From: a virus | Direction: 5' to 3' (one strand) | IMG/VR virus record: IMGVR_UViG_3300025704_000788 | Coordinates: 1-36,974 of that record | DNA: 36,974 nt | Shown: one piece after another, positions 4,847 through 36,974 of the stretch | Layout: each line of letters starts with the position of its first letter | Position numbering within the stretch: position 1 is the stretch's first letter | Notes under the pieces: model-generated | Database searches by the model: none | What the model saw: only the letters and a program-made list of their open reading frames with translations | What the model was told of the DNA's origin: nothing | Program-made: the position numbers and the translations under genes

Positions 4847-5971
4847 ATGACTCCTTCTCAACAGCTCGCCGTAGACGTATATCTAGAAGCAGGATCTTAT
4901 CGCAAGGCTGCTAAAATCTTAGGAAAGAACGAATCGACGATCCGAAATAAGATAAAGCGACTAGAGAAACTAGGGAAGGTTCCTTGGGGATCTCCCGCTC
5001 CTAGCCCGAATCATATAGCAGTTAAGAGTTCGACTGTTCAGTATAACTCGAAAGGAGAAGTCATACAGGAATGGCGTCGTCAGTTTCCTACGATCGAGCT
5101 AATGGAGGACGTAGTAAACGGACTCTGCGAGCAGGCTAAAGGAAGAGCTAAAGTCTCGAAGTCTAAACCGAATAAGAAGACTAGAGACGATATCCTCTTC
5201 GAGATCGATCTCTTCGACGCTCACGTCGGGATGTATGCGGACGAGACGGAGACGCTCGATAGCAATTATAACTGCGATATAGCGGCCGAGAGAATGGTCG
5301 AAGCTACGGAAGCTCTAGCTAGTCGAGCGAATAATCCTAGTAAGTGTGTCCTAGTCTTCGGAGGCGATATGCTCCACGTAGATAATCGGAGCAATCAGAC
5401 TCCTGCGAGCGGACACTCTCTCGACGCGGACGGACGATATCACAGGATAGTTAATTATATTATAGCAGCCTGCACTAGATGCGTCGATATCGCTGCGAGG
5501 ATAGCACCAGAAGTCGAGATAGTCGTCCTAGAGGGTAACCACTCCGCGCACTCCGAGCTATGGCTAGGACACGTCCTTAAAGCTTACTATTCTAACTGCG
5601 ATAACGTAGAGATAAAAACTACTCCTAATCCTCGTAAGCATTTAATCTGGGGCGACAATTTGTTATTATGGGCTCACGGCGACAAGATAGCTGCTCCTAA
5701 ATGGTCTATGATAATCGCAGCGGAGTTCGCTCGAGAGTGGGGCGTTACGAAGTATCGACATCTAAAGTGCGGACACGTTCACCACAAGAAGACGATCGCT
5801 CCCGTCATCGTAGACGAGCAGAGCGGACTAGTCGTCGAATACTTAGAAGCTCTCTGCGCTACGGACGCTTGGCACGCTGGAGCAGGATTCGTAGGATCTC
5901 AAAAAGGCGCGAGCGCATTCGAGTATAGTAAGACGGAAGGACTCCTAACTCGTCACTTTAAAACTGTATGA
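4847..5971 (+). CDS. HTH plus calcineurin-like metallophosphoesterase
   Basis: A 374-residue protein with two parts. Residues 5-45 form a helix-turn-helix (SYRKAAKILGKNESTIRNKI). Residues 115-320 hold the metallophosphoesterase metal motifs in order: D124-A-H126, G173-D174, G230-N231-H232, H277-G-D and G309-H310-x-H312. This arrangement is the Mre11/SbcD-like fold that hydrolyses phosphodiester or phosphomonoester bonds with two metal ions. Linkage to a DNA-binding N-terminus suggests a nucleic-acid substrate, for example nuclease processing during replication or host DNA breakdown. The stop overlaps the dNMP kinase start by 4 nt, supporting a nucleotide-recycling or DNA-metabolism operon. 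Enzyme class is strong; substrate is inferred. Confidence 0.85.
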   Translation: MTPSQQLAVDVYLEAGSYRKAAKILGKNESTIRNKIKRLEKLGKVPWGSPAPSPNHIAVKSSTVQYNSKGEVIQEWRRQFPTIELMEDVVNGLCEQAKGRAKVSKSKPNKKTRDDILFEIDLFDAHVGMYADETETLDSNYNCDIAAERMVEATEALASRANNPSKCVLVFGGDMLHVDNRSNQTPASGHSLDADGRYHRIVNYIIAACTRCVDIAARIAPEVEIVVLEGNHSAHSELWLGHVLKAYYSNCDNVEIKTTPNPRKHLIWGDNLLLWAHGDKIAAPKWSMIIAAEFAREWGVTKYRHLKCGHVHHKKTIAPVIVDEQSGLVVEYLEALCATDAWHAGAGFVGSQKGASAFEYSKTEGLLTRHFKTV

Positions 5972-6501: not shown

Positions 6502-6778
6502 TTTCGAGCATGATCTAAATATATCGAGAGCAACGGAGGAAGCTCTCGAGCAGGCTAAAGCTACACTCGGAGAGTTCTTTACTCACTTCGCTATAGTCGT
6601 TCAATACGACGACGGCTCTGTCTTACATGACTCAGATAACATGCTAGTAGAGAAAGCTCTCTATCTAGAAGCACTCGATATGATTAAAGAGGAGAAGCGA
6701 TCCGAGTCTGTAGACTACGAGCTAGAGTGGGACGACGAAGATGACGACGAGAATTACTTAGTAGAAGACGAAGACTAG
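6491..6778 (+). CDS. Acidic hypothetical protein
   Basis: A 95-residue protein that starts within the end of the dNMP kinase gene (11-base overlap), so it is probably translationally coupled. It is very acidic: the last 20 or so residues are almost all Asp and Glu (WDDEDDDENYLVEDED). The middle (FFTHFAIVVQYDDGSVLH) looks like a small alpha-beta fold. Strongly acidic small phage proteins are sometimes DNA mimics that block DNA-binding host enzymes, but no family is recognised and that function is not shown here. Confidence 0.7.
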   Translation: MDHDFEHDLNISRATEEALEQAKATLGEFFTHFAIVVQYDDGSVLHDSDNMLVEKALYLEALDMIKEEKRSESVDYELEWDDEDDDENYLVEDED

Positions 6779-9816: not shown

Positions 9817-10608
9817 ATGGCAACACTAGAAAGAAAAATAGACCTCGACGGATCTCATTGGTATACGAAGGACGGAGTCCCAGCTTATACGATGAAGAAG
9901 TCGAAAGGAGACGGAGAGCGGAATACGACTCTCCGAGACGCGAGGAAGTATAATCTACTACCCTCTGTTACTACCCTCTTCGGAATCCTCGCTAAACCTG
10001 GACTCGATAGATGGAAGATAGGAAAGGCTATAGAAGCGACTCTAGTAACTCCTAGAGACGCGGACGAACCCGACGAGCGTTACTATAGTAGAATCAGATC
10101 GCGTAGCTACGAGGAGACTAGCGCAGCGGCTACTCTAGGAACGAGGATTCACGACGCGATAGACGCAGCCTTCGACGGAGTCGAACCCGACGAAGACTTA
10201 AAGCAATACGTCGAGCCTACTATGGACTACTTAGCGACTCTAAATCTAGTAGATATAAGTCGCGAGGGTGTCGTCGTTAATACGGCCGAAGGATACGCAG
10301 GACGAGTAGATCTATTAGCTAAATTCGGTAACTCGAATATCATTATAGACTTCAAGACTAAGAAGACGAAGGAGGGCGTAAAGGTTACTCCGTTCGACTT
10401 CCAAGCTACGCAGATCGCGGCCTACGCTATGGCAGCATTCGGAACTCTAGATAACTGCTTCGGAGCGAACGTCTATATCTCTACTACAGAGCCTGGACGT
10501 ATCGAGACATCCGTCTATGACGAAGAGAAGCTCCGTAGCGAATACGGACTCTTAAAGAATATATGCGGCATCTGGAGACACTTAAAAAATTACGATCCGA
10601 GAGGATAA
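9817..10608 (+). CDS. PD-(D/E)XK exonuclease, RecB/Cas4-like
   Basis: A 263-residue nuclease. H112 lies in GTRIHDAID, the first acidic residue D165 in GYAGRVDLLA, the core D178-x-K180 in IIIDFKTKK, and the QxxxY motif in Q199-IAAY203. This is the order of the RecB-type PD-(D/E)XK nucleases (Cas4 and Exo VIII-like). Phage versions resect double-stranded ends for single-strand annealing recombination or concatemer processing. It sits beside an SSB-like protein and upstream of a RuvC-like resolvase, consistent with a recombination and replication operon. No Bet or Erf annealing protein was recognised nearby, unless one of the small genes fills that role. Confidence 0.8.
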   Translation: MATLERKIDLDGSHWYTKDGVPAYTMKKSKGDGERNTTLRDARKYNLLPSVTTLFGILAKPGLDRWKIGKAIEATLVTPRDADEPDERYYSRIRSRSYEETSAAATLGTRIHDAIDAAFDGVEPDEDLKQYVEPTMDYLATLNLVDISREGVVVNTAEGYAGRVDLLAKFGNSNIIIDFKTKKTKEGVKVTPFDFQATQIAAYAMAAFGTLDNCFGANVYISTTEPGRIETSVYDEEKLRSEYGLLKNICGIWRHLKNYDPRG

Positions 10609-10613
10609 TCACT

Positions 10614-10913
10614 ATGGAAACTAAACTAATAAAAACGAGCACAATTATTCGAGCAGCGACAATCGTAACAGGAAAGCCATCTAAAATAATTAGAGGTCCA
10701 TCTAGAGTCGCCTCCGTCGTAGCGGTAAGGAATCTCTGCTATAAAATCGCTAAGGATTATCTATTCCTAGCGGATAGAGATATCGCATCGTCATTTAATA
10801 GAGATCGGAGCGCGATAACTTACTCTCTAAAGCGAGTAGAGCAAGACTTAGAGCAGCAGGCTAACTATCGAGCAATGCTTCGCATGATAAAGGAGGAGCT
10901 AGGACTATGCTAG
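10614..10913 (+). CDS. Stand-alone DnaA domain IV-like DNA-binding protein
   Basis: A 99-residue protein with the ATG at 10614; an in-frame start at 10563 would overlap the nuclease gene. The core, RVASVVAVRNLCYKIAKDYLFLADRDIASSFNRDRSAITYSLKRVEQDL, matches the C-terminal domain of DnaA: a first helix with AR..A, then an IG..F.RDHSTV-like signature, here IASSFNRDRSAITYS. That domain reads DnaA boxes at replication origins. Here it lacks the AAA+ ATPase, so it may mark the phage origin, compete with host DnaA or act as a regulator. It overlaps the next gene by 7 bases. Good by-eye match. Confidence 0.7.
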   Translation: METKLIKTSTIIRAATIVTGKPSKIIRGPSRVASVVAVRNLCYKIAKDYLFLADRDIASSFNRDRSAITYSLKRVEQDLEQQANYRAMLRMIKEELGLC

Positions 10914-11215
10914 ATCTAGAGCCTAATACTCGAGCGTCCTCTATCTCTAGCTTTATGAGATGGATAAGCGATAGACTCGACGAGGAGATCGAAGCTATAG
11001 AAAGATCGGAGGAGGAGTTCGGAGTAGAGAAAATATACACGGAGGAACTAGAGAAGAAGCCGAACAACCTTACTGATGATCAGAAGATTAAATTAGTTAA
11101 GGACGTAAATAATCTCTATAACTCGTATCCGAATATGGCTCGGAAGGAAGCGTGTCGAGAGATAGGAATACACTACACTACTTACTATAAATGGAGGAGA
11201 CTATTAACAAAATGA
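10907..11215 (+). CDS. HTH protein with acidic N-terminal helix
   Basis: A 102-residue protein. The N-terminal half is a charged helix (RWISDRLDEEIEAIERSEEEFG). The C-terminal half, NNLYNSYPNMARKEACREIGIHYTTYYKWRRLLTK, looks like a transposase-type or small-terminase-type helix-turn-helix in which IGIHYTTYYKW is the recognition helix. Start overlaps the DnaA-like gene by 7 bases and its stop overlaps the next ATG (ATGA), so it is within a compact operon. It may regulate the operon or assist replication initiation. No specific family is recognised. Confidence 0.7.
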   Translation: MLDLEPNTRASSISSFMRWISDRLDEEIEAIERSEEEFGVEKIYTEELEKKPNNLTDDQKIKLVKDVNNLYNSYPNMARKEACREIGIHYTTYYKWRRLLTK

Positions 11216-11370
11216 ACAACTACAAAGAAGAAGAGGAAGAGGAAGAGGATCCTACGGAGATAGACTGCGAAGTCTGCGGAGGTTACGGAGAGTTCGCTAA
11301 CGAGAGCTATTCGACTATATGGATATCATGCACAGCGTGTAACGGAACAGGAGTAAAATTAAATGACTAA
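11212..11370 (+). CDS. Small DnaJ-type zinc-finger protein
   Basis: A 52-residue ORF that overlaps both neighbours by 4 and 8 bases. After an acidic start (EEEEEEED-like run, residues 6-13) it has CEVCGGYGE (C19, C22) and CTACNGTG (C40, C43). Two CxxCxGxG units make one four-Cys zinc-binding module as in the DnaJ central domain. Small phage proteins of this kind may bind nucleic acid or unfolded protein. Packing in the operon and conserved motif support a real gene despite its size. Confidence 0.75.
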   Translation: MNNYKEEEEEEEDPTEIDCEVCGGYGEFANESYSTIWISCTACNGTGVKLND

Positions 11371-11548
11371 AAGGCTATTTACACAAGACGAGCGGAGCGT
11401 CCTCGAGCGAGGACTAGAATCTATGACTAAAGCCTTAGAGTCCTTAACTAGAGAGAGAGAGATTCTAATCGAGAGAGTAGAAGATCTAGAAGCGGAAGCT
11501 TCTCATCTCCGAGATCGACTTATAATCGATAGAGAGGAGCGAGAGTAA
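11363..11548 (+). CDS. Small coiled-coil protein
   Basis: A 61-residue protein with heptad-like Leu and Ile spacing along most of its length (LERGLESMTKALESLTRERE, then ILIERVEDLEAEASHLRDRL). It is predicted to be a single long coiled coil. It overlaps the zinc-finger gene by 8 bases and the resolvase start by one base (TAATG), so it is part of the replication operon. Function unknown; it could be an assembly partner of a neighbour. Confidence 0.7.
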   Translation: MTKRLFTQDERSVLERGLESMTKALESLTREREILIERVEDLEAEASHLRDRLIIDREERE

Positions 11549-12351: not shown

Positions 12352-14361
12352 ATGCGAACAAGACAAAGCACGGCAAATGACACTTATCAATCTAGACTCA
12401 TCAGCATCGTTAAACAAGCGAGAGCTACCGAGACACAAGACTTTAAACTCGATAAAATTATCGAATGGATCCGAAGCGGAAGCGGACGATTCGCCGATAA
12501 CATCTTAGCTGTAAGAGAAGCGACGGAAGGAGGAGATCTAGATCGAGCGTCCGAGCTAAAGCGAAACCTACCCGCAGTAATGTTTAGCGGACAGTTCTCT
12601 CGGAGATCTAGTAAGAATATAACGAGCCACTCGGGCATGATCTGCATGGATGTCGATAAGATCGACGCTCCTGCTAAAAAGGTCGATGAAATGCGATTCG
12701 ATCCTCATATCGTCGCAGCCTTCGTCTCTCCTTCTGGCAACGGACTAAAAGCGATATTCGCTATTCCGAGTGACGTAGATCGACACAAGGAGTCCTTCGA
12801 ATCCGCGAAGAGATACTTAGCGACTTACGGACTCGAAGCGGACGAGAGCGGCAAGGATGTCTCTAGACTTTGCTTCCTTAGCCACGATCCAGAGATTCAT
12901 TACGCTCCAGACGCGGTAGAGCTTCCTGTCTATATCGAAGAACAGAAGATAGCCGAGAAGTCGACATCCTCTAAGGCTCCTACAGGAGATCGAATCGGAG
13001 ATCGCTACTCGTCGTCTCCTAACATTCGCGAGCGATCCGTAGCTATACTACAGCGTCTAGGATGGAAGATTCAGAGAGGAGACGGAGAGCGGACTTACTG
13101 CACTCGACCTGGAAAGGATCGAGGAATCTCTGGAGAGCTTCGGAGCGACGGATCCTTTTTCTGTTATACGGACGGAGCGTCTCCGCTAGAGCCGATAACG
13201 AATTACTCGTCCTTCGCGCTCTATACGGCTGCAGAGCATCGAGGAGACTTTAAAGCGGCAGCTCTAGCTCTAGCAGAGGAGTTCGGCGATAACGAGCCTC
13301 CAGTAGACGGACGCGACTTCTATAGCAAAGGAGAAGCGATAGAGACGCAGGAGAGAGTCGTAGACGAGAGGAGACGGGAAGTAATAGGAACGCTGCCTCC
13401 ATGGACAGGAGGAGACGAATATCCGAAGGATCTAAAGAAGCTCCTACTAAGACGATATCCTGTCCTTATCGATGGTCTACTACATAGAGGAACTAAGATG
13501 GTTCTAGGAGGAGGATCGAAGTCCTATAAGACGTGGACGCTCCTAAACTTAGCGGCGTGCATAGCGAGCGGTCGTCCTTGGTTCGGCAAGGAGACTATCG
13601 ATACAGGACTCGACGTTATCTTCCTTAACTTCGAAGTCCCTCATGAGTTCTTCCTAGATCGAGCGGAGAGCGTCTGCCGAGCCATGGGACTCGACTCCGT
13701 TCCTAGCAATCTAAAAGTCTGGTCTCTCCGAGGAATAACGAACGACCTGAGTGTCGTCCTCGAAGCTATGATCGAGCGCATGACTAACGGACTCGCTCTA
13801 TTAGTTATCGATCCGATCTATAAAGCTCTCGGAGATCGAGACGAGAATAGCGCAGGAGATATCGGACTACTTATGAACGAAGTCGAGAAGATCGTAGAAC
13901 AGACAGGAGCGGCCGTAGCATTCGGAGCGCACTACTCGAAGGGTAACCAAGCGGAGAAGGATCCTCTCGATCGTATTAGCGGCTCTGGCGTCTTCGCTCG
14001 AGATCCAGATACGATTATGGGACTAACAGCGCACGAGGAAGAGAACTGCTACACGGTCCACTCCGCTCTACGGAACTTCCCAAGCGTCGAGCCGTTCGTA
14101 GTAGAATGGGACTTTCCTCTCTTCTCCTCTCGCGACGATCTAGACGCTGGTAAGTTAAAAAGACCTGGGCAGAAGACTAGCGCAGGAAAGATCCTCTCCG
14201 AGATAACTATCGAAGGAGTAGATCCGAAGGAGTTCGTCCCAGCTATGGCTTCTAAGTTCGACGTAAGCGATCGGACTGTCTATCGACTACTAAAGACTCT
14301 AAGCGACTCGAAGAGGATCCATAAGACTGCGGGTCACTACTTCTTAACTAACCCCAACTAA
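12352..14361 (+). CDS. Primase-helicase: BT4734/VirE_N-like primase plus RepA-like RecA-fold ATPase
   Basis: A 669-residue fusion. Residues 60-200 resemble the BT4734-like (VirE N-terminal) domain: GMICMDVDKID with D100 and D102, FVSPSGNGLKAIF, and YGLEADESGKDVSRLCFLSHDPE. In replication proteins this domain is considered primase-like. Residues 365-590 form a RepA/AAA_25-type ATPase with Walker A GGGSKSYKT (about 386-394), a FLNFEVP segment and Walker B LALLVIDPIY (about 481-490), followed by GAHYSKG and SGSGVFARDPDTIM. The C-terminal 60 residues look like a winged helix (MASKFDVSDRTVYRLLKTL). It would unwind the replication fork and prime synthesis. No phage DNA polymerase is present, so host polymerase is probably used. 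The start at 12352 follows a short overlapping reading frame (12302) of doubtful status. Confidence 0.85.
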   Translation: MRTRQSTANDTYQSRLISIVKQARATETQDFKLDKIIEWIRSGSGRFADNILAVREATEGGDLDRASELKRNLPAVMFSGQFSRRSSKNITSHSGMICMDVDKIDAPAKKVDEMRFDPHIVAAFVSPSGNGLKAIFAIPSDVDRHKESFESAKRYLATYGLEADESGKDVSRLCFLSHDPEIHYAPDAVELPVYIEEQKIAEKSTSSKAPTGDRIGDRYSSSPNIRERSVAILQRLGWKIQRGDGERTYCTRPGKDRGISGELRSDGSFFCYTDGASPLEPITNYSSFALYTAAEHRGDFKAAALALAEEFGDNEPPVDGRDFYSKGEAIETQERVVDERRREVIGTLPPWTGGDEYPKDLKKLLLRRYPVLIDGLLHRGTKMVLGGGSKSYKTWTLLNLAACIASGRPWFGKETIDTGLDVIFLNFEVPHEFFLDRAESVCRAMGLDSVPSNLKVWSLRGITNDLSVVLEAMIERMTNGLALLVIDPIYKALGDRDENSAGDIGLLMNEVEKIVEQTGAAVAFGAHYSKGNQAEKDPLDRISGSGVFARDPDTIMGLTAHEEENCYTVHSALRNFPSVEPFVVEWDFPLFSSRDDLDAGKLKRPGQKTSAGKILSEITIEGVDPKEFVPAMASKFDVSDRTVYRLLKTLSDSKRIHKTAGHYFLTNPN

Positions 14362-14373
14362 AAGAAAACACAC

Positions 14374-15774
14374 ATGAGATACAAAATACCTACTATGCGA
14401 GATATCGCTAACATCGAGTGGAACGGCTGTAACGTCGCGTCTACTTTTTCAGGCTGCGGAGGATCCTCTACAGGATATAGAATGGCAGGATATCGAGTCC
14501 TCTACGCGAACGAGTTCGTCCCAGCTGCTCGCGAAGCATACGAAGCGAATAAAGCCGACTATACTTACGTCGATCCGAGAGATATACGAGAAGTTAAAGG
14601 ATCCGATATCCTAGATAAGATAGGACTAGGAGTAGGAGAGCTAGATCTCCTCGACGGATCTCCTCCGTGCGCGTCGTTCTCCGTCTGCGGCAATCGCGAA
14701 AAGGACTGGGGCAAGGTTAAGAAGTATAGCGACACGAAGCAGAGGACGGACGATCTATTCTTCGAGTTCGCTCGAATCCTAAAGGAGATACAGCCGAAGA
14801 CTTTCGTCGCGGAGAACGTAGCAGGACTCGCGATGGGCGCCGCTAAGGAGTTACTCGGAACTCCGCAGCTCGATATGTTTAACGAGCAAGACGATACGAT
14901 CCTCCATACGTTAATGAACTGCGGATATCGAGTCGAAGCTAAGATCCTTAACGCCGCGGATCTAGGAGTTCCGCAGTCGAGACGGCGTCTAATCTTCGTC
15001 GGAGTCCGTAACGATCTAGAGAAGTCTCCTATCTTCCCTAGTCCTCTTCCTTATAAGTTTACGATCCGAGACGCTATAGCCGACTTACAAGTCGAGGAGA
15101 GCGAGGAGCATGACGTAAAGCTTCCTCCGTCATACGCTCGAGAGTATGATAAGATAGGATATGGCGGTAACTCCGATAAGATCTTCCAGCTCTATCGCGG
15201 AGACTGGGATAAGCCAGTCGGAACGATTCACGCTAACCCTAAAGGAGCTAGTTGGTTACACCCCGACGATAAGAGACGCTTTACGATTAGAGAGCTAAAG
15301 CGTCTATCGAGCTTCCCAGAGGACTTTATAATCGAAGGAGGATACTCGAAGGAAGGAGAGCGGATAGGACGATCCGTTCCTCCGATTATGATGCGAGAGA
15401 TCTCCGAGACTATCCGTCTAGAGATCCTAGCGGATAGAGAAGCGGACATGGGTAAATACGCAGTAGGAGCGGAGTGGAATAAGCTCGAGGAAGGAGAGCA
15501 GTCGGAGAAGTATTTTAGCCTAATCCGATCCGCTTGGGACAAACCCTCGCAGACTATTACGGCAGCAGCAGGATCTACGTCCGCCGCCTCCGTCGCGCAT
15601 CCTTCCGAATGTCGGAAGTTTAACGTGCAGGAGACGAAGAGACTCTCGAGCTTTCCTTTCGACTTTATCCTTACGGGTAACTATAAGCAGATGATCGAGA
15701 GAATGGGACGCTCCGTTCCTCCTATTATGATGCGAGAGATATCCTCCGTAATTAGGAAGGAGATCTTAGCATGA
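14374..15774 (+). CDS. Cytosine-C5 DNA methyltransferase with duplicated TRD-IX-X lobe and GRS motif X
   Basis: A 466-residue enzyme. Motif I is STFSGCGGSSTGYRMAG (residues 23-39), motif IV SPPCASFS with catalytic C99, motif VI AENVAG (E147, N148, V149) and motif VIII PQSRRRLIFVG (200-210). The C-terminal lobe occurs twice. Copy 1 (about 255-352) and copy 2 (about 362-465) each have WDKPxxTI, then HPxxxRxF...E.KRLSSFP (motif IX at 301-314 and 414-427), then GRSVPPIMMREIS (motif X at 332-344 and 445-457). Normal C5 methyltransferases have one TRD, IX and X. In both copies motif X has Arg (R333, R446) where the family has Asn (GNSV). It overlaps the CmoA-like gene by 4 bases. No restriction endonuclease is beside it, so it is an orphan modifier. 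It may transfer a group other than methyl. Confidence 0.9.
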   Translation: MRYKIPTMRDIANIEWNGCNVASTFSGCGGSSTGYRMAGYRVLYANEFVPAAREAYEANKADYTYVDPRDIREVKGSDILDKIGLGVGELDLLDGSPPCASFSVCGNREKDWGKVKKYSDTKQRTDDLFFEFARILKEIQPKTFVAENVAGLAMGAAKELLGTPQLDMFNEQDDTILHTLMNCGYRVEAKILNAADLGVPQSRRRLIFVGVRNDLEKSPIFPSPLPYKFTIRDAIADLQVEESEEHDVKLPPSYAREYDKIGYGGNSDKIFQLYRGDWDKPVGTIHANPKGASWLHPDDKRRFTIRELKRLSSFPEDFIIEGGYSKEGERIGRSVPPIMMREISETIRLEILADREADMGKYAVGAEWNKLEEGEQSEKYFSLIRSAWDKPSQTITAAAGSTSAASVAHPSECRKFNVQETKRLSSFPFDFILTGNYKQMIERMGRSVPPIMMREISSVIRKEILA

Positions 15775-16415
15775 GCGACTGGACTTTCGAGACTAAGGAG
15801 ATCGCTAAAGGATTCTCTAAGCACGTGAACCAACACCTACCTTGGTATCCTCTCGCGACGAATCTTATAAAGTGTATCGTCGAGAATTACATTCCGACCA
15901 ACGGAGTCCTCCTAGATATCGGAGCGAGTCGCGGCAATATAACAAAGTCCTTAGAGGATCTTATATGGCATAGAGGAGTAGACGCTAAGTCCTTCGAGAT
16001 AAGTAAGGAGATGGTGGATCAGTTCGAAGGAGTAGGATCTATATCTACTATCGACGCAGAGAAGATCGACGATCGATTCGATGTAGCTATCTGCTACTTA
16101 ACACTTATGTTTAATAGCGTAAGTAAGAGAGAGCGGATCCTAGATCGACTACGATATCTAATAAATCGAGGAGGATGTATTATTATCGTAGAGAAGTTCG
16201 AGATCGAGGAAGGAGGATACTCTTCGACGGTCCAGCGACGGATGACGATGCGACAGAAGCTAGATCACGGAGTAAGCGCGGAGGAGATAGTAGATAAGGA
16301 GCTATCGCTATCGGGCGTCCAGCGTCCTCTAAAGATCGAGGAGATCGAGGGGTTCTCTAGTTCCGAGTTCTTCCGAGTAGGAGAGTTCCGAGGATTTATC
16401 CTCGAGAATCCGTAG
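15771..16415 (+). CDS. CmoA-like SAM-dependent enzyme (candidate carboxy-SAM synthase)
   Basis: A 214-residue class I SAM enzyme. Its N-terminus SDWTFETKEIAKGFSKHVNQHLPWYP matches CmoA (GDWTFDERVAEVF...VPGY) closely by eye. Motif I is LLDIGASRGNIT (CmoA: VYDLGCSLGAAT), later ICYLTLMFNSVSKRERIL parallels VLNFTLQFLEPSERQALL, and GGCIIIVEKF parallels GGALVLSEKF. CmoA converts SAM plus prephenate to carboxy-SAM, normally for tRNA wobble uridine modification by CmoB. No CmoB-like gene is present. E. coli Arg199, which binds the cofactor carboxylate, aligns to Glu in DKELSL, so the product needs testing; several Arg lie nearby (QRRMTMRQK). The 4-base overlap with the C5 methyltransferase suggests it supplies the donor. 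A plain methyltransferase is the alternative. Confidence 0.75.
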   Translation: MSDWTFETKEIAKGFSKHVNQHLPWYPLATNLIKCIVENYIPTNGVLLDIGASRGNITKSLEDLIWHRGVDAKSFEISKEMVDQFEGVGSISTIDAEKIDDRFDVAICYLTLMFNSVSKRERILDRLRYLINRGGCIIIVEKFEIEEGGYSSTVQRRMTMRQKLDHGVSAEEIVDKELSLSGVQRPLKIEEIEGFSSSEFFRVGEFRGFILENP

Positions 16416-16454
16416 ATAGACTCCGAGATAGCTAGTAATAAATAGAGAGAAACC

Positions 16455-16512
16455 TGAGAAAAAGGGCCTTGACTCGAGTAGTCTTGGCCCTTTGTGTTCC
16501 TCTATCGGCGCG
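16455..16512 (+). promoter_or_regulatory. Repeated promoter-like element, copy B, overlapping a hairpin
   Basis: TGAGAAA (16455), GGGCCTTGACTCGAG (16464-16478) and ATCGGCGCG (16504-16512) match copies A and C. TTGAC starts at 16469, 35 bases before the ATCG block and 81 before the ATG at 16550. AAAGGGCC (16461-16468) pairs with GGCCCTTT (16486-16493) and GACT with AGTC inside it, so the element also forms a hairpin that could terminate the methyltransferase operon. Confidence 0.65.
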
Positions 16513-16549
16513 AGTTACGCTCCGAATCTAACCCAAAAAAATACGACAT

Positions 16550-16828
16550 ATGAAAAAACTAAACTCATCACTCGATACTCTTGGCAACAGCATCATCGGA
16601 TTAAATAGAGGCAATCGCAAGATCGCTCAAGTTAGAACTAGAGCCTCCGTTGAGGAAATCGCTACAGCTTATAGCGACGGAGTCGAGCTTTCTACCGAAT
16701 GGGACTACAGCTCTCTCTTAACTCAAAAACAAGCAGTAAGATACTATAACGAATGTAAGGATAATCCATTGATCGAAGTAGAGTGGACATCAAATATCGT
16801 ATCTGACCCCTTCGACTCTTCGAGCTAA
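16550..16828 (+). CDS. Hypothetical protein
   Basis: A 92-residue protein, first gene of the cassette driven by promoter-like element B. Leader CCCAAAAAAATACGACAT precedes the ATG. The sequence has a basic N-terminal third (GLNRGNRKIAQVRTR) and a more acidic C-terminal part (ECKDNPLIEVEWTS), with EEIATAYSDG and KQAVRYYNECKDN likely helical. No family recognised. Its codon use is close to that of its neighbours. It is probably an early accessory protein. Confidence 0.7.
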   Translation: MKKLNSSLDTLGNSIIGLNRGNRKIAQVRTRASVEEIATAYSDGVELSTEWDYSSLLTQKQAVRYYNECKDNPLIEVEWTSNIVSDPFDSSS

Positions 16829-16874
16829 GAAAATCGTTCCTACAAAATAACCCTAATCCTAAAAAATACGAAAT

Positions 16875-17075
16875 ATGAAAAACGAAATTCAAATCATCCT
16901 CGACTTCGCTCGCGATACTCTCGGAGCGGATATCTACGGCACGACTATCGACTTCCAACAAGGATGCCTAGTCGAAGTATCTATCTCGAACGGATCCGTA
17001 AAATTAGACGGCGGAATCACCGGAGAAGTCGAATACTACGCGACTTCGGAAGAAGCTATCGAAGCTCTATCCTAA
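16875..17075 (+). CDS. Hypothetical acidic protein
   Basis: A 66-residue protein with leader CTAAAAAATACGAAAT before its ATG. The sequence alternates short strands (GTTIDFQQGCLVEVSI, GSVKLDGGITGEVEYYA) after one helix (IQIILDFARDTLG) and ends in a helix (SEEAIEAL), suggesting a small alpha-beta fold. Net acidic. No family recognised. Second gene of the element-B cassette. Confidence 0.7.
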   Translation: MKNEIQIILDFARDTLGADIYGTTIDFQQGCLVEVSISNGSVKLDGGITGEVEYYATSEEAIEALS

Positions 17076-17094
17076 ACTACTAACTAATACGACT

Positions 17095-17325
17095 ATGACT
17101 AAAGGACAAACAGCCGCCGCGGAATTTATCGAGAGCTTCCTAGAATCGGAGGATACTTCCTTCGACTATAATGATCTCACTAATTGCGTAGAAGAATCTA
17201 AAGCTCGCGTTAAGAACTGGATGTCGATTCGACAAGTTCTAGCCTACTTTATTAACGAGGACTATATCGCTAGAGATCGATCCGATCTAAGTATCGAACG
17301 TTTCTATAAGAAAAATAACTCCTAA
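17095..17325 (+). CDS. Hypothetical protein
   Basis: A 76-residue, mostly helical protein (AAAEFIESFLESEDTSF, then VEESKARVKNWMSIRQVLAYFINEDYIARDRSDL). The VKNWMSIRQVLAYFINEDYI part resembles a compact winged-helix-like or helical bundle, but no family is clear. The leader ACTAATACGACT directly precedes the ATG. Third gene of the element-B cassette. Confidence 0.7.
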   Translation: MTKGQTAAAEFIESFLESEDTSFDYNDLTNCVEESKARVKNWMSIRQVLAYFINEDYIARDRSDLSIERFYKKNNS

Positions 17326-17350
17326 TCCGAATCCTAACCTACTAAATATT

Positions 17351-17668
17351 ATGAACAAATCACCAGAAAAAATAGCCCATCTCGCGATCGAAATTACAGA
17401 CTATATCAGAGCTTCGCGACGAGAGAATATGCCGCTAACTAGCGAGAAAATCGGATTCTCGGACGATCTCTACGAGACTCTAGAGGTCCTTAAATTCGAG
17501 AAGGATATCGATAGTCTAGAAGACTTCGAAGCTTACTCGAACTGGGAAGTCTTCTACGATCTCTTTAAGGATGTTAACGGAGTCTCTCCTCGCTGGACTC
17601 GCTGGACCGATCACGACGCTACTCTCTGGAGAGAGAAGATAGAGCATCTATCGAGTTGTCTCGACTAA
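17351..17668 (+). CDS. Hypothetical protein
   Basis: A 105-residue protein, last of the element-B cassette and followed after 7 bases by a terminator. An amphipathic N-terminal helix (EKIAHLAIEITDYIRASRRE) is followed by acidic segments and a Trp-rich C-terminal part (SPRWTRWTDHDATLWREKIE). Small phage proteins of this kind are common in early regions. No family recognised. Leader ACCTACTAAATATT without the TACGAC box of the three preceding genes. Confidence 0.7.
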   Translation: MNKSPEKIAHLAIEITDYIRASRRENMPLTSEKIGFSDDLYETLEVLKFEKDIDSLEDFEAYSNWEVFYDLFKDVNGVSPRWTRWTDHDATLWREKIEHLSSCLD

Positions 17669-17675
17669 GCTCTCT

Positions 17676-17698
17676 AGCCCTCCTCGGAGGGCTTTTTT
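17676..17698 (+). terminator. Rho-independent terminator
   Basis: AGCCCTC (17676-17682) and GAGGGCT (17687-17693) form a 7-bp stem with a CTCG loop, followed by a T-run (17694-17698). It ends the element-B cassette. Confidence 0.9.
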
Positions 17699-18101
17699 GT
17701 GTAGTCCTACGATCCTCTCTAGAGCTTCCGTCTACTCGGAGACTCCTAGTAGACGTATCGATAGCTCGGAGTCCTTTAGAGCGTGATAGAGGACGATCTA
17801 AAGGGGGATTTGACAGCTCTGACATCCTGTCAAAAGTCCGACGGAGAGGAAACCTCTTTTGACAGCTCCTGTCAGTATATAAGACGATCTCTACGAGCGA
17901 CTTCTCTAATTATTGTCAGCACTTTTGACAGGCGATGTCATTATTGCCGTCACTTATAAGGATAACGACAATAATACGCGGAACGGATACGAGACATCGA
18001 CGCCTACAGGCGAGTCTGTCTCTCCTCGTTCTCCTATCGACGGCGACTAGAGGATTAGACGGCTAATTGACAGGAGAGGAGGAAGGAGAGATAACTATCG
18101 A
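17699..18101. other. Non-coding region between the accessory cassette and the packaging module
   Basis: About 400 bases without a convincing gene. The first 110 bases show nothing notable. From 17809 to 17975 lies a cluster of TTGACAG/CTGTCAA half-sites (separate entry). Another TTGACA is at 18067-18072, 29 bases before the ATG at 18102, beside a purine-rich stretch (AGGAGAGGAGGAAGGAGAGA). Reading frames at 17656-17862 and on the other strand are judged spurious. Confidence 0.8.
17809..17975. promoter_or_regulatory. Operator- or origin-like cluster of TGACAG/CTGTCA half-sites
   Basis: TTTGACAG at 17809-17816 faces CTGTCAAAA at 17827-17835. TTTTGACAG at 17857-17865 faces CTGTCA at 17869-17874, followed by TATATAAG. 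TTTTGACA at 17923-17930 faces TGTCA at 17936-17940. ATTATTG occurs at about 17909 and 17940, and its reverse complement CAATAAT at 17969-17975. Repeated dyads of this type are typical of regulator binding sites or origin iterons. The binding protein is unknown. Confidence 0.6.
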
Positions 18102-18371
18102 ATGAACGATAACTATGAACTACAAGCTCTCCGAGCTATCCGAGAGATTAATCTCTCTATTCGTGAACTCGAAAACCAAGCGGCAGCTACGTCTAAGCGA
18201 TACAAGCGAGGAGTAAAGCTACTACAGTCGGAGACGACGGCTATCGAAGCTTCGCTAGACGAAGGAGGATCGATCGAAGGAATGGAGCCGTGGAATATCC
18301 AAGGCGAGAAGCTTTCTCTACTTATTGCCAATCCGATCCTCGAGAATATCGAGGACGACTACTTAGTCTAA
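18102..18371 (+). CDS. Hypothetical helical protein
   Basis: An 89-residue, mainly helical protein (ELQALRAIREINLSIRELEN, then QAAATSKRYKRGVKLLQSET) that probably forms a coiled-coil hairpin, with an acidic C-terminus (ENIEDDYLV). It opens the structural block after the TTGACA-rich region and is followed 3 bases later by another small gene. No family recognised. Confidence 0.7.
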   Translation: MNDNYELQALRAIREINLSIRELENQAAATSKRYKRGVKLLQSETTAIEASLDEGGSIEGMEPWNIQGEKLSLLIANPILENIEDDYLV

Positions 18372-18374
18372 GAG

Positions 18375-18782
18375 ATGCGGACTGTAAGGATAATAGAAGG
18401 ACTAGACTACCCAGAGGAGATCCCCTGCGAGCTTCCTTATCATCATATCCTTACTTGCGAAATAGCGGCTCGTCTACAGGAACTAGACGAGCTGCTTCCA
18501 GGTAACGGGAAGTCCCAAGGAGGAATCCGACTAATGAATCGTCTATCCTCCGTCGAGCGTCGCTCGACTAGAGCTTATCGACTTATCCTAGATATGCTAA
18601 CTCAGCAGCTAAGTCTCTCTAGCTCCTTCGAGGATCTAGGAGCTAGGAAGGATCACTCTCGTCAGTCGTGGCTCCAGAACGCTCAGAGCGATATCGAGAC
18701 TATCAAATCAGTTTGGCCAGAGATAGGAGTCGTAATGGAGGAGCTAATCCGACGACGAACGACGGAGGACGCGGCTTCTTGA
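18375..18782 (+). CDS. Hypothetical protein upstream of the small terminase
   Basis: A 135-residue protein (MRTVRIIEGLDYPEEIPCELPYHHILTCE...). After a short extended N-terminus it is largely helical (CEIAARLQELDELLP, TRAYRLILDMLTQQLSL, NAQSDIETIKSVWPEIGVVMEELIRRR). Its place directly upstream of the putative packaging site and terminase suggests a packaging-related or regulatory role, but no family is recognised. It follows the 89-residue gene by 3 bases. Confidence 0.7.
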   Translation: MRTVRIIEGLDYPEEIPCELPYHHILTCEIAARLQELDELLPGNGKSQGGIRLMNRLSSVERRSTRAYRLILDMLTQQLSLSSSFEDLGARKDHSRQSWLQNAQSDIETIKSVWPEIGVVMEELIRRRTTEDAAS

Positions 18783-18955
18783 CTGCTCAAAATTGGTTAA
18801 ACTTTGGTAAAAGCGGGGGGAGCTTTAGTTACTTTGCGGCGAAAGTCTTTTGCAAGTCTCCTCCCGAGCCTGAGCGTTTTCACGAGTTTTTTGTCAAAAG
18901 CTTTTTTGAGTAAGAATAACTAATTAGCAGGATTCCTAGAATTACAAAATCTAAC
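18783..18955. other. Non-coding segment before terS, candidate cos/pac site
   Basis: A 173-base gap whose composition (T-rich, with G6 and CTCCTCCC tracts) is unlike the rest of the window. CTCAAAA (18786-18792) and TTTTGAG (18904-18910) bracket it. ACTTT-GCGGCG-AAAGT forms a small hairpin. In lambda-like phages the packaging site lies just upstream of the small-terminase gene, as here. Evidence is positional and compositional only. Confidence 0.4.
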
Positions 18956-19447
18956 ATGAAAAAAAACACGTGGAAGGAAGTCGCAGGAGAGATCGGAGTT
19001 ACTCCTCAGACTCTATCTAAATGGAGGAAGGACTCGGAGACATGTCCGAAGACGAAGGATATCGAAGCGTGGAAACTATGGTCCTTAGATCGAGCTAACT
19101 CGCAGGAAAAAGGAGGAGGGCGAATAGCTGTTGACGGAAGAGAATATACTGCTGCCGATATCGCGGATCTAAAAGCGAAGCTTATCGCTGCTCAGGAGCG
19201 ACGAGAGAATGCTATGGCGCAGATCCGAGAGCTAGAGTTACAACAGAAGAAGGATAACTTAATCCCCGAGTCTGAAGCGGCCGAGAAGTTAATAAAGCTA
19301 CTGACTCCGCTTAGGAGATTACTCGACGCTCTTCCTCGACAAGTCGCAGCGCAGGCTAATCCAGCTAATCCTAATATCGCGGAACTCGCGATACGGAACG
19401 GACTTGACGATAGGGTCTTTAGTGAGATAGCAAAGCTTTTCCTCTGA
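18956..19447 (+). CDS. Small terminase subunit-like (Nu1-like) DNA-binding protein
   Basis: A 163-residue protein. The N-terminal residues 3-22 (KNTWKEVAGEIGVTPQTLSK) form a helix-turn-helix. The middle has ADIADLKAKLIAAQERRENAMAQIRELELQQKKDNLIPESEAAEKLIK, a helical segment like the Nu1/terminase small-subunit family, where the region after the HTH binds DNA and the C-terminus binds the large subunit. The C-terminal part (LLDALPRQVAAQAN...) is also typical of Nu1-like proteins. It would recognise the packaging site. It is separated from TerL by one small gene and an unusual inverted repeat that begins at its stop codon. Confidence 0.75.
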   Translation: MKKNTWKEVAGEIGVTPQTLSKWRKDSETCPKTKDIEAWKLWSLDRANSQEKGGGRIAVDGREYTAADIADLKAKLIAAQERRENAMAQIRELELQQKKDNLIPESEAAEKLIKLLTPLRRLLDALPRQVAAQANPANPNIAELAIRNGLDDRVFSEIAKLFL

Positions 19448-19515
19448 CGAGTAGCCTCGCTATTAAGACGTGAGTCGGTTTAGTCGTGTTTACCGTTGTG
19501 ACGCTCGTCAGAGGA
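19440..19515 (+). repeat. Long-loop inverted repeat at the end of terS
   Basis: CCTCTGACGAG (19441-19451) is the exact reverse complement of CTCGTCAGAGG (19504-19514). One more A-T pair outside and a G-T pair inside extend the stem to about 13. The 52-base interior shows no further strong stem. The left arm includes the terS stop codon. No T-run follows, so it is not an ordinary terminator. Confidence 0.8.
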
Positions 19516-19534
19516 TTCATTTTATATAATATAT

Positions 19535-20299
19535 ATGCAGACTAACCTAAAGATAGACTCGACGGGATTTGATCGCATGATGCGAACTCTAACGAAAAAG
19601 ACGGGTGCTAGTTACGAGAAAGTCCTAAAGAGCATGACGGGAGAGATCCTAAATAGCGCAGCTCGTAAGACTAATAAGGCGGATAAGAAAGCGATGGATA
19701 AATCCATCCGCCGCTCGCTCGCGGCTAGATTCGTATCGTCATCTGGGGATAAGATTAGAAAAGCGATAGACGGATCTTTAATTTATCAGTCTCAATCAAT
19801 GAAGCGAGGCCACTGGATAAGGCTCCGTCGAGACTTCAAGCTAAATGCTATAAGCGATAAGAATCCGTCTGGGGCTATAATTAAGGGCAATCTAAAGACG
19901 AAGATAAATAGAGCACTAGCGGAGTATAGAAAGCGACAGACTGCTATACTAAAGTTAAAGAAGTCTAGAGTAGGGTCCTCTCAGAAGTCCTTCTTAGAGA
20001 TAATGAAGAAGCTACGGATCCCTATTAAATCTACTAGAGGATTAGGAGCGGCGATGAAGTCTAAGCTAACTCCAGGACATGGTAAGGCGTTAAGCGGGAA
20101 GATTAAGAGCGATAAGTATGCATCGACGATTACTATTAAGAGCGAATCCGAATCAGCTCTTAATACTAGAGCAAGAGGGATAAACGCTTTCGCTGGAGCC
20201 ATGAACGGGAAGGTAAAAGAATTTAATACTGCTCTAAAGAAGGATCTTAAGGGATATATAAAAGGCTTCTCCGCTCGTAATGGCTTCACTATTAAATAA
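19535..20299 (+). CDS. Putative minor structural / tail completion protein (HK97 gp10-like)
   Basis: A 254-residue, very Lys- and Arg-rich protein. The N-terminus (NLKIDSTGFDRMMRTLTKKTGASYEKVLKSMTGEILNSAARKT) resembles the beginning of head-tail joining proteins of the HK97 gp10 type. The C-terminal GINAFAGAMNGKVKEFNTALKKDLKGYIKGF is helical. The assignment is tentative; its position between TerS and TerL is unusual for such a protein. Its leader is an AT-rich ATATAATATAT sequence. The last 20 bases overlap the start of TerL in another frame. Confidence 0.5.
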   Translation: MQTNLKIDSTGFDRMMRTLTKKTGASYEKVLKSMTGEILNSAARKTNKADKKAMDKSIRRSLAARFVSSSGDKIRKAIDGSLIYQSQSMKRGHWIRLRRDFKLNAISDKNPSGAIIKGNLKTKINRALAEYRKRQTAILKLKKSRVGSSQKSFLEIMKKLRIPIKSTRGLGAAMKSKLTPGHGKALSGKIKSDKYASTITIKSESESALNTRARGINAFAGAMNGKVKEFNTALKKDLKGYIKGFSARNGFTIK

Positions 20300-36647: not shown

Positions 36648-36974
36648 ATGAAGATCGCTACTGTCATAGTCGCTACAAAGTCCTATCTCGATCCGCTCGA
36701 AGTCTGTCTGCGCAGAACTAGGACGGCTATCGATAACGAGATCTCAGAGTTCGAGCATAGACTGATCGTCGTAACGGATAAGTCTAGTAAGAGTCTAGTC
36801 GATAAAATGGCTGCAGACTTCGAAGATCGCGAGATTATCGCGATCGAGATGGAGGAGAGCGGAGAACACTATAAGAAGGATAGACAGATACTTATCGCTT
36901 CTCTTCAGTCTACAGGATTCGACGCTGCTCGTCGCTGGGGCTGCGACTTTCTCTGGAGCGTCGAAGCGGATGTC
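36648..36974 (+). CDS. Glycosyltransferase-like protein, N-terminal part (continues at 1-827)
   Basis: The gene starts at ATG 36648 and runs off the window. The first residues MKIATVIVATKSYLDPLEVCLRRTRTA look like the start of a GT-A Rossmann-type half, and EFEHRLIVVTDKSSKSLVDKM follows. From 36849 the sequence is identical to 12-137 and in the same frame, so the two fragments make one gene of about 338 codons. It lies 42 bases after the large fibre gene and is the first of the sugar-modification genes. Confidence 0.65.
   Translation, partial: MKIATVIVATKSYLDPLEVCLRRTRTAIDNEISEFEHRLIVVTDKSSKSLVDKMAADFEDREIIAIEMEESGEHYKKDRQILIASLQSTGFDAARRWGCDFLWSVEADV
36849..36974. repeat. Terminal direct repeat, right copy (126 bp)
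   Basis: Identical to 12-137. The upstream bases 36838-36848 differ from 1-11 at three positions. It shows that the ends of the window overlap. Confidence 0.95.

Follow-up and report, generated by a model that had tools for sequence, protein, structure and literature searches.

What does a cluster of short inverted repeats do in the main non-coding region of a phage genome, and which protein would bind it? The window considered here, an IMG/VR record of 36,974 bp analysed over its whole length, displayed assigned genes that all point rightward: exonuclease, DnaA domain IV, helix-turn-helix (HTH), RuvC-like resolvase, primase-helicase and methyltransferases to the left of this region, and terminase (small terminase gene at 18956) and structural genes to its right. 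The original prediction saw in the cluster either the operator of a phage regulator or a repeat-bearing origin, and named as candidate binders the DnaA domain IV protein and the HTH product encoded at 10907.

The contig ends carried an exact direct repeat of 126 bp (12-137 and 36849-36974), leaving a unit of about 36,837 bp, and the contig is therefore a circular or permuted assembly. Among relatives, the contig of L002 started at the equivalent of window 18855, just before the small terminase gene, and those of L004, L005, L006, L013, L015 and L023 started within a few bases of it or with similar first letters; this shared start is probably a physical genome end. A small coiled-coil-like ORF at 11363-11548 weakly matched YabA, a protein of replication initiation control (E=0.0023, below the cut-off), and the conserved protein encoded at 4847-5971 displayed a possible N-terminal HTH (weak Pfam matches).

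The non-coding region and its repeats

Only two ORFs, of 68 aa each, entered the region, both from its left edge. Its features and those adjoining it were as follows.

17669..18101, non-coding region of 433 bp, replication genes to the left and packaging genes to the right
17656-17862, plus strand, 68-aa ORF with a TTG start
17619-17825, minus strand, 68-aa ORF reaching into the left edge of the region
17676..17693, plus strand, intrinsic terminator closing the early genes (7-bp stem with 5 G-C pairs, T-run)
17809..17834, site A, a complex site, TTTGACAG ctcTGACAtc CTGTCAAA
17860..17874, site B, palindrome TGACA-N5-TGTCA, kept in 8 of the 8 TGACA-type relatives examined
17914..17918, single half-site TGTCA, TGACA in seven relatives
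17926..17940, site C, palindrome TGACA-N5-TGTCA, 66 bp from site B
17945..17983, core with TTATAAGGATAA, an AT-rich element and candidate opening site, aligned to TTTTTGCCGNCACCTATATAGTAA in relatives
17981..18031, conserved hairpin, its outer stem separated by a 4x3 internal loop from the inner stem (GAGACA/TGTCTC), its top variable
18067..18095, plus strand, promoter-like TTGACA-17-GATAAC ahead of gene 18102, its -35 box conserved across loci
18102..18371, plus strand, conserved small gene adjoining the putative origin, with homologs in relatives
18375..18782, plus strand, second such conserved small gene, also with homologs in relatives

TTGACAG was found at 17810, 17859, 17925 and 18067 of the window, while the region displayed CTGTCA at 17827 and 17869 and TGTCA at 17828, 17870, 17914 and 17936. 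Eight of the 27 TGACA/TGTCA words of the window fell within the 161 bp of 17800-17960, an interval picked after the cluster had been seen, against 0.08 expected from their density elsewhere. A search without preselected word returned CTGTCAA/TTGACAG as the most clustered 7-mer of the 37-kb window; its score was equalled by two sequences in each set of 200 Markov controls (first-order and third-order), which corresponds to a chance of roughly 1 in 100. An unbiased word search in relatives ranked the cluster below first place in L083 and L019. The half-site cluster announced for the main non-coding region is thus real. Its dyads stood where they had been placed, over a span of about 130 bp (17810-17940) and not the 170 claimed, and TGACA-N5-TGTCA occurred exactly twice in the whole window, at 17860 and 17926. 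The ATTATTG direct repeats (17909 and 17940) and their inverted copy CAATAAT (17969) were also present; they did not constitute a conserved repeat of their own, because in TGACA-type relatives the first usually continues into the half-site (TTATTGACA) and the second reads TTTTTGCC.

The further TTGACA at 18067 had been listed together with the dyads. It is probably the -35 box of a promoter and not a part of the putative origin. Of 18 loci, 16 (three of them, L018, L024 and L039, being near-identical) had TTGACA or TTGACT about 30-40 nt ahead of the downstream gene, including loci with quite different repeats, while L029 and L043 lacked it; since the box is kept in loci with other repeats, this copy is better read as promoter than as part of the cluster. 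By eye its -10 hexamer displayed four of six matches. The box was absent from the list of a sigma-70 promoter scan, which returned one minus-strand site, not above shuffles.

Over the window, GC skew displayed no informative change marking an origin and Rfam no family at gathering score; a DNA search of the region against named phages gave no match.

Conservation of the layout and of the hairpin

Related loci were gathered by searches with the terminase (79 loci), the primase (17) and the pair of small genes downstream of the region (19 and 18), the sets overlapping. The same half-sites were found upstream of the gene-18102 homolog in eight loci (L018, L019, L020, L024, L039, L083, L084 and L087), a count that leaves out the near-identical L003 and in which L018, L024 and L039 are near-identical to one another. 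Conservation in near relatives, on which the original prediction was to stand or fall, thus extended from the half-sites to their layout: close relatives kept site A, two palindromes about 65 bp apart, the AT-rich core and the hairpin.

Site A consisted of TGACA in two or three copies, spaced by 9-10 bp, in the window, L018, L024, L039, L019, L020, L084 and L087, and was reduced to a single TGTCA in L083. The N5 palindrome of site C was kept in four of the eight loci (L083, L020, L084 and L087); its spacer was 4 bp in L018, L024 and L039, and the site was broken in L019. Spacing between B and C was 64-66 bp in the window, L083, L020, L084, L087, L091 and L095. In the latter two, both palindromes read CGACA-N5-TGTCG and lay 66 bp apart, the first base pair being changed in every arm. 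The half-site at 17914-17918 read TGACA in L018, L019, L020, L024, L039, L084 and L087. These same seven loci displayed 80-83% AT in the richest 30-mer of the core, against 67% in the window, while the richest 30-mer lay outside the core in L083, L091 and L095.

Two local peculiarities were observed in relatives. In L030, L038 and L109 the homologs of genes 18375 and 18956 lay farther apart, with about 3 kb of additional DNA separating them. In L091, 66 nt just downstream of the hairpin (6559-6624) matched tmRNA at both of its ends (Rfam RF00023, 56.2 bits, cut-off 47); the middle part was missing and ARAGORN called no gene, leaving a tRNA-like domain alone beside the putative origin.

The hairpin at 17981-18031 displayed covariation. 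Over its two stems, 97.6% of cells were paired (82.9% in shuffles), two-sided cells numbered 12 (3.9 in shuffles) and the covariation score was 0.401 (0.129 in shuffles), values reached by none of 500 shuffles, in a set of eight sequences, seven of them distinct, whose counts include shared ancestry. The number of pairs with two-sided change, four, was reached by 94 of the 500 shuffles and that of further pair types by 58; the signal was lost when partners were slid. With respect to stability, the region of the window ranked 20th of about 1,200, 19 of 1197 outside windows being equally strong, and its most stable fold covered the dyads and not 17981-18031. After correction for G+C, 33 of 38 regions held a best-1% hairpin of their locus and 16 of 38 the top hairpin, counts to which palindromic repeats and terminators contribute; the five remaining regions were those of the window, L083, L087, L088 and L139.

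The primase-helicase and its recognition helix

A better candidate binder than those named earlier, and one absent from the original prediction, is the winged helix predicted at the end of the primase-helicase, a single phage-encoded protein of 669 aa (winged helix from Pfam and predicted structure).

12352..14361, plus strand, primase-helicase, proposed initiator (Pfam BT4734-like_N and AAA_25; predicted folds)
14182..14358, plus strand, C-terminal winged helix-turn-helix, residues 611-669 (pLDDT 82-92)
14263-14295, plus strand, recognition helix VSDRTVYRLLK, residues 638-648, within the predicted winged helix

The best Pfam matches of the winged helix were under cut-offs (HVO_A0261_N, 7.8e-5; HTH_11, 1.8e-4), that of the L121 protein to HTH_11 being above. 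For the model of the middle domain, the matches listed included T4 gp41, DnaB (Z about 19) and RSF1010 RepA (Z 18.2, 229-228 residues aligned), all within a Z range of 17.9-19.2. The N-terminal model (pLDDT 76) gave no Foldseek match at E<=0.001, the top ones being RSF1010 RepB' (3h20, E=2.3e-3) and the S-2L PrimPol (6zp9, 3.2e-3), while VIA-align Z scores were 8.1 for 6zp9, 7.4 for 3h25 (RSF1010 RepB') and 7.0 for 3h20; as modelled, the primase part weakly resembles RepB'. A whole-protein model in two parts reached a pTM of 0.46, and its domain arrangement is hence not reliable. PMC5862659 lists the BT4734-like family among AEP primases and suggests origin recognition for the C-terminal winged helices of a related family.

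Differing repeat words occupied the same place in other relatives, and five repeat words paired with five classes of recognition helix.

TGACA, helix R(T/S)(V/I)YR, window group (window, VSDRTVYRLLK)
CGACA, helix RT(I/V)QR, repeats in L091 and L095 (helix of L091, VSQRTIQRTLK)
ACGACAT, same helix class (VSVRTVQRYVK), L121
GCGACA, helix RTVER, L109 and L122 (IGARTVERYTK)
TTGGAAA, helix STVYS, repeats in L105 and L111 (helix of L105, IGKSTVYSQVK)
TTTCCCG, helix KTIRN, L107 (ASEKTIRNRIS)

The repeats of L123 were TGCTCAG/ATGCTCA, its primase being recognisable in part of the N-terminal half alone (35%). CGACA-type repeats were foretold to follow the primase of L093 and L094 from its helix (RTVQR) and were then found there, which counts as one event as the two are near-identical in that stretch. 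Their terminase was 23% identical over part of its length, indicating that primase and repeats co-occur outside this phage group. As far as sequences go, recognition helix and repeats thus seem to vary jointly.

L091 tells most: its protein as a whole is nearer to the window group, but its repeat word is that of L121 and L094. Outside the winged helix its primase was 71-78% identical to the window group; its repeat-word similarity was 0.00-0.10 to that group, 0.53 to L121 and 0.41 to L094. L091, L121 and L094 shared Gln at position 644, and the helix of L091 differed from that of the window at 4 of 11 positions, that is, beyond 644 alone. Mantel tests over 13 genomes gave similar correlations for the repeat word: r was 0.75 against the helix, 0.77 against the winged helix and 0.78 against the remainder of the primase (p=0.0002 in all three). 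In partial tests of the same genomes, r was 0.24 for the helix given the rest (p=0.049) and 0.38 for the rest given the helix (p=0.004); common descent accordingly explains at least as much, specificity and descent being separated only weakly. These 13 genomes did not clearly show a closer fit of the repeat word to the helix than to the remainder of the protein, and further genome scans yielded none usable for the helix code.

Tentatively, one short helix of each primase-helicase might hold a private origin code across this wide family. Changes around residue 644 (Tyr, Gln, Glu) would alter the base or bases with which the half-site begins (TGACA, CGACA, GCGACA), the palindrome arms would be rewritten together, and related phages would not fire each other's origins in one cell. 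If true, marine, gut and streptococcal phages would together provide a natural series of specificities of an origin-binding domain.

Beyond the close relatives, a primase profile search of viral contigs, of which the best 80 of 365 relatives were kept, was complemented by one of bacterial genome contigs (8 matches, the best in Spartobacteria and Verrucomicrobiaceae assemblies). The repeat region lay directly 3' of the primase-helicase stop in L107, L109, L122, L121, L093 and L094, while in the window the first repeat was 3.4 kb from that stop. Methyltransferases and small ORFs (14374-17668) separate the two in the window; this cargo was missing in L107, L109, L121 and L122. The 350 bp after the stop constituted the top repeated-word window of the locus in 15 of 29 loci, among them 9 of the 12 named phages, a count that assumes a gap-free layout, leaves out loci with a displaced region (window group, L091, L105) and contains close kin (L093/L094, L109/L122, L143/L145, Javan phages). 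It was not the top one in the other 14, being at or near the bottom in L139 and L145. AGGGACA occurred 10 times in Javan355, 12 in Javan17 and 16 in Javan535, and a CCTATAAGG-like core recurred by eye across the regions of the wider family. Like the window, phages EFC-1, Javan355, Javan17, Javan535, BCJA1c, FP_Lugh and Aster displayed repeats, usually with a strong hairpin; these lay right after the RepA-like primase-helicase gene, used other repeat words, and came with proteins matching part of the helicase-winged helix query at 37-39% identity. In Streptococcus thermophilus phage Sfi21, the origin reportedly lies beside the primase gene.

A putative origin, its rivals and its precedents

Positions 17809-18031 are very probably the replication origin of the phage, recognised by the C-terminal winged helix of its own primase-helicase. 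This winged helix would bind the TGACA/TGTCA half-sites of site A and of palindromes B and C, and the bound proteins would form a ring helicase of RepA/DnaB type. At about 17945-17983 the ring would open the AT-rich core; the strand thereby exposed would fold into the hairpin, and the primase domain may prime on it. An origin fits because a candidate repeat binder, ring helicase, primase, AT-rich core and hairpin are all present.

Of the two functions originally offered, that of an origin is well supported and that of an operator less likely, though some autoregulation may occur. Dyads at the early/late boundary could be bound by a phage regulator or by the primase-helicase as autorepressor, and the terminator upstream, the promoter-like box downstream and the fixed 5-bp spacer of the palindromes, as for a dimer, would suit this role. 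The repeats, however, stop 127 bp ahead of the -35 box without overlapping it, the box is kept where the repeats are entirely different, and in unrelated phages such clusters come immediately after the primase gene; Pfam recognised no regulator among the ORFs of 16550-18913, where small divergent ones could be missed. An operator is therefore considered unlikely.

Binding to the putative origin is very improbable both for the DnaA domain IV protein (10563-10913) and for the HTH protein (10907-11215), although both genes belong to the replication module and most relatives with contigs spanning that stretch carry homologs. No DnaA domain IV homolog was found in L105, which keeps the cluster, or in L123 (the contigs of L082 and L107 start too late to cover it), and 17358-19743 held no DnaA box (TTATNCACA, at most one mismatch), such boxes numbering 12 window-wide against 12.2 expected. 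The helix of the HTH protein hardly differed between the window (IHYTTYYKWRR) and L091 (LHYTTYYKWRK) despite their different repeat words, and searches for a homolog found none in L094, which has a cluster, or in L123. Since an ORF of L105 (3400-3684) resembles it, the case against this protein rests on its helix and on L094. Neither binder is thus supported. A packaging recognition region for the terminase, to which the small terminase gene and the genome end suggested by the relatives' contig starts, about 0.8 kb off, might point, is scarcely credible, as in L093/L094 and in named phages, where the terminase is different or distant, clusters of this kind come after the primase gene.

The origin proposed here would work like several known systems, from which it differs in protein make-up and in distance from the gene. 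According to PMC7581432, the C-terminal domain of SaPI Rep acts on repeats just downstream of its own gene, as shown for SCCmec Cch2. Both are initiator helicases with a C-terminal domain on short repeats, as predicted here; they are DUF927 and D5-like helicases, whereas here a RepA/DnaB-type helicase is fused to an AEP-type primase, the half-sites are palindromic and the putative origin is 3.4 kb from the gene instead of directly downstream. PMC4234260 describes P4 and RSF1010 and reports a stem-loop origin for pRN1. RSF1010 oriV combines repeats and hairpin with a RepA-like helicase fold and a primase fold weakly similar to that predicted here, but relies, in that description, on three proteins (RepA, RepB' and RepC) where one of 669 aa is found here, on ssiA and ssiB where there is one hairpin, and on unrelated repeats. 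The alpha protein of phage P4 (PMC4234260) is a single primase-helicase with a winged helix on origin repeats, as predicted here, its primase being described there as of the bacterial Toprim type. In ORF904 of pRN1 (PMC4234260), primase, helicase and C-terminal winged helix also reside in one protein, and a stem-loop in downstream non-coding DNA is needed for replication; the same source gives it an SF3 helicase and a stem-loop of about 100 nt, no repeats being recognised. For phages with RepA-like primase-helicases, no paper on an origin of this kind was found in the open-access literature (PMC).

If the reading is right, an origin is located and an initiator named for an uncultured marine phage group, the primase of which finds its nearest cellular matches in Verrucomicrobiota assemblies. 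Phages with RepA-like primase-helicases would then gain an origin-finding rule, namely repeats and a hairpin beside or near the gene, and natural helix/half-site pairs would be at hand for measuring how an origin-binding domain changes its specificity. It would also suggest that the division of labour of RSF1010 between primase, helicase, repeat binder and hairpin is packed into a single phage protein.
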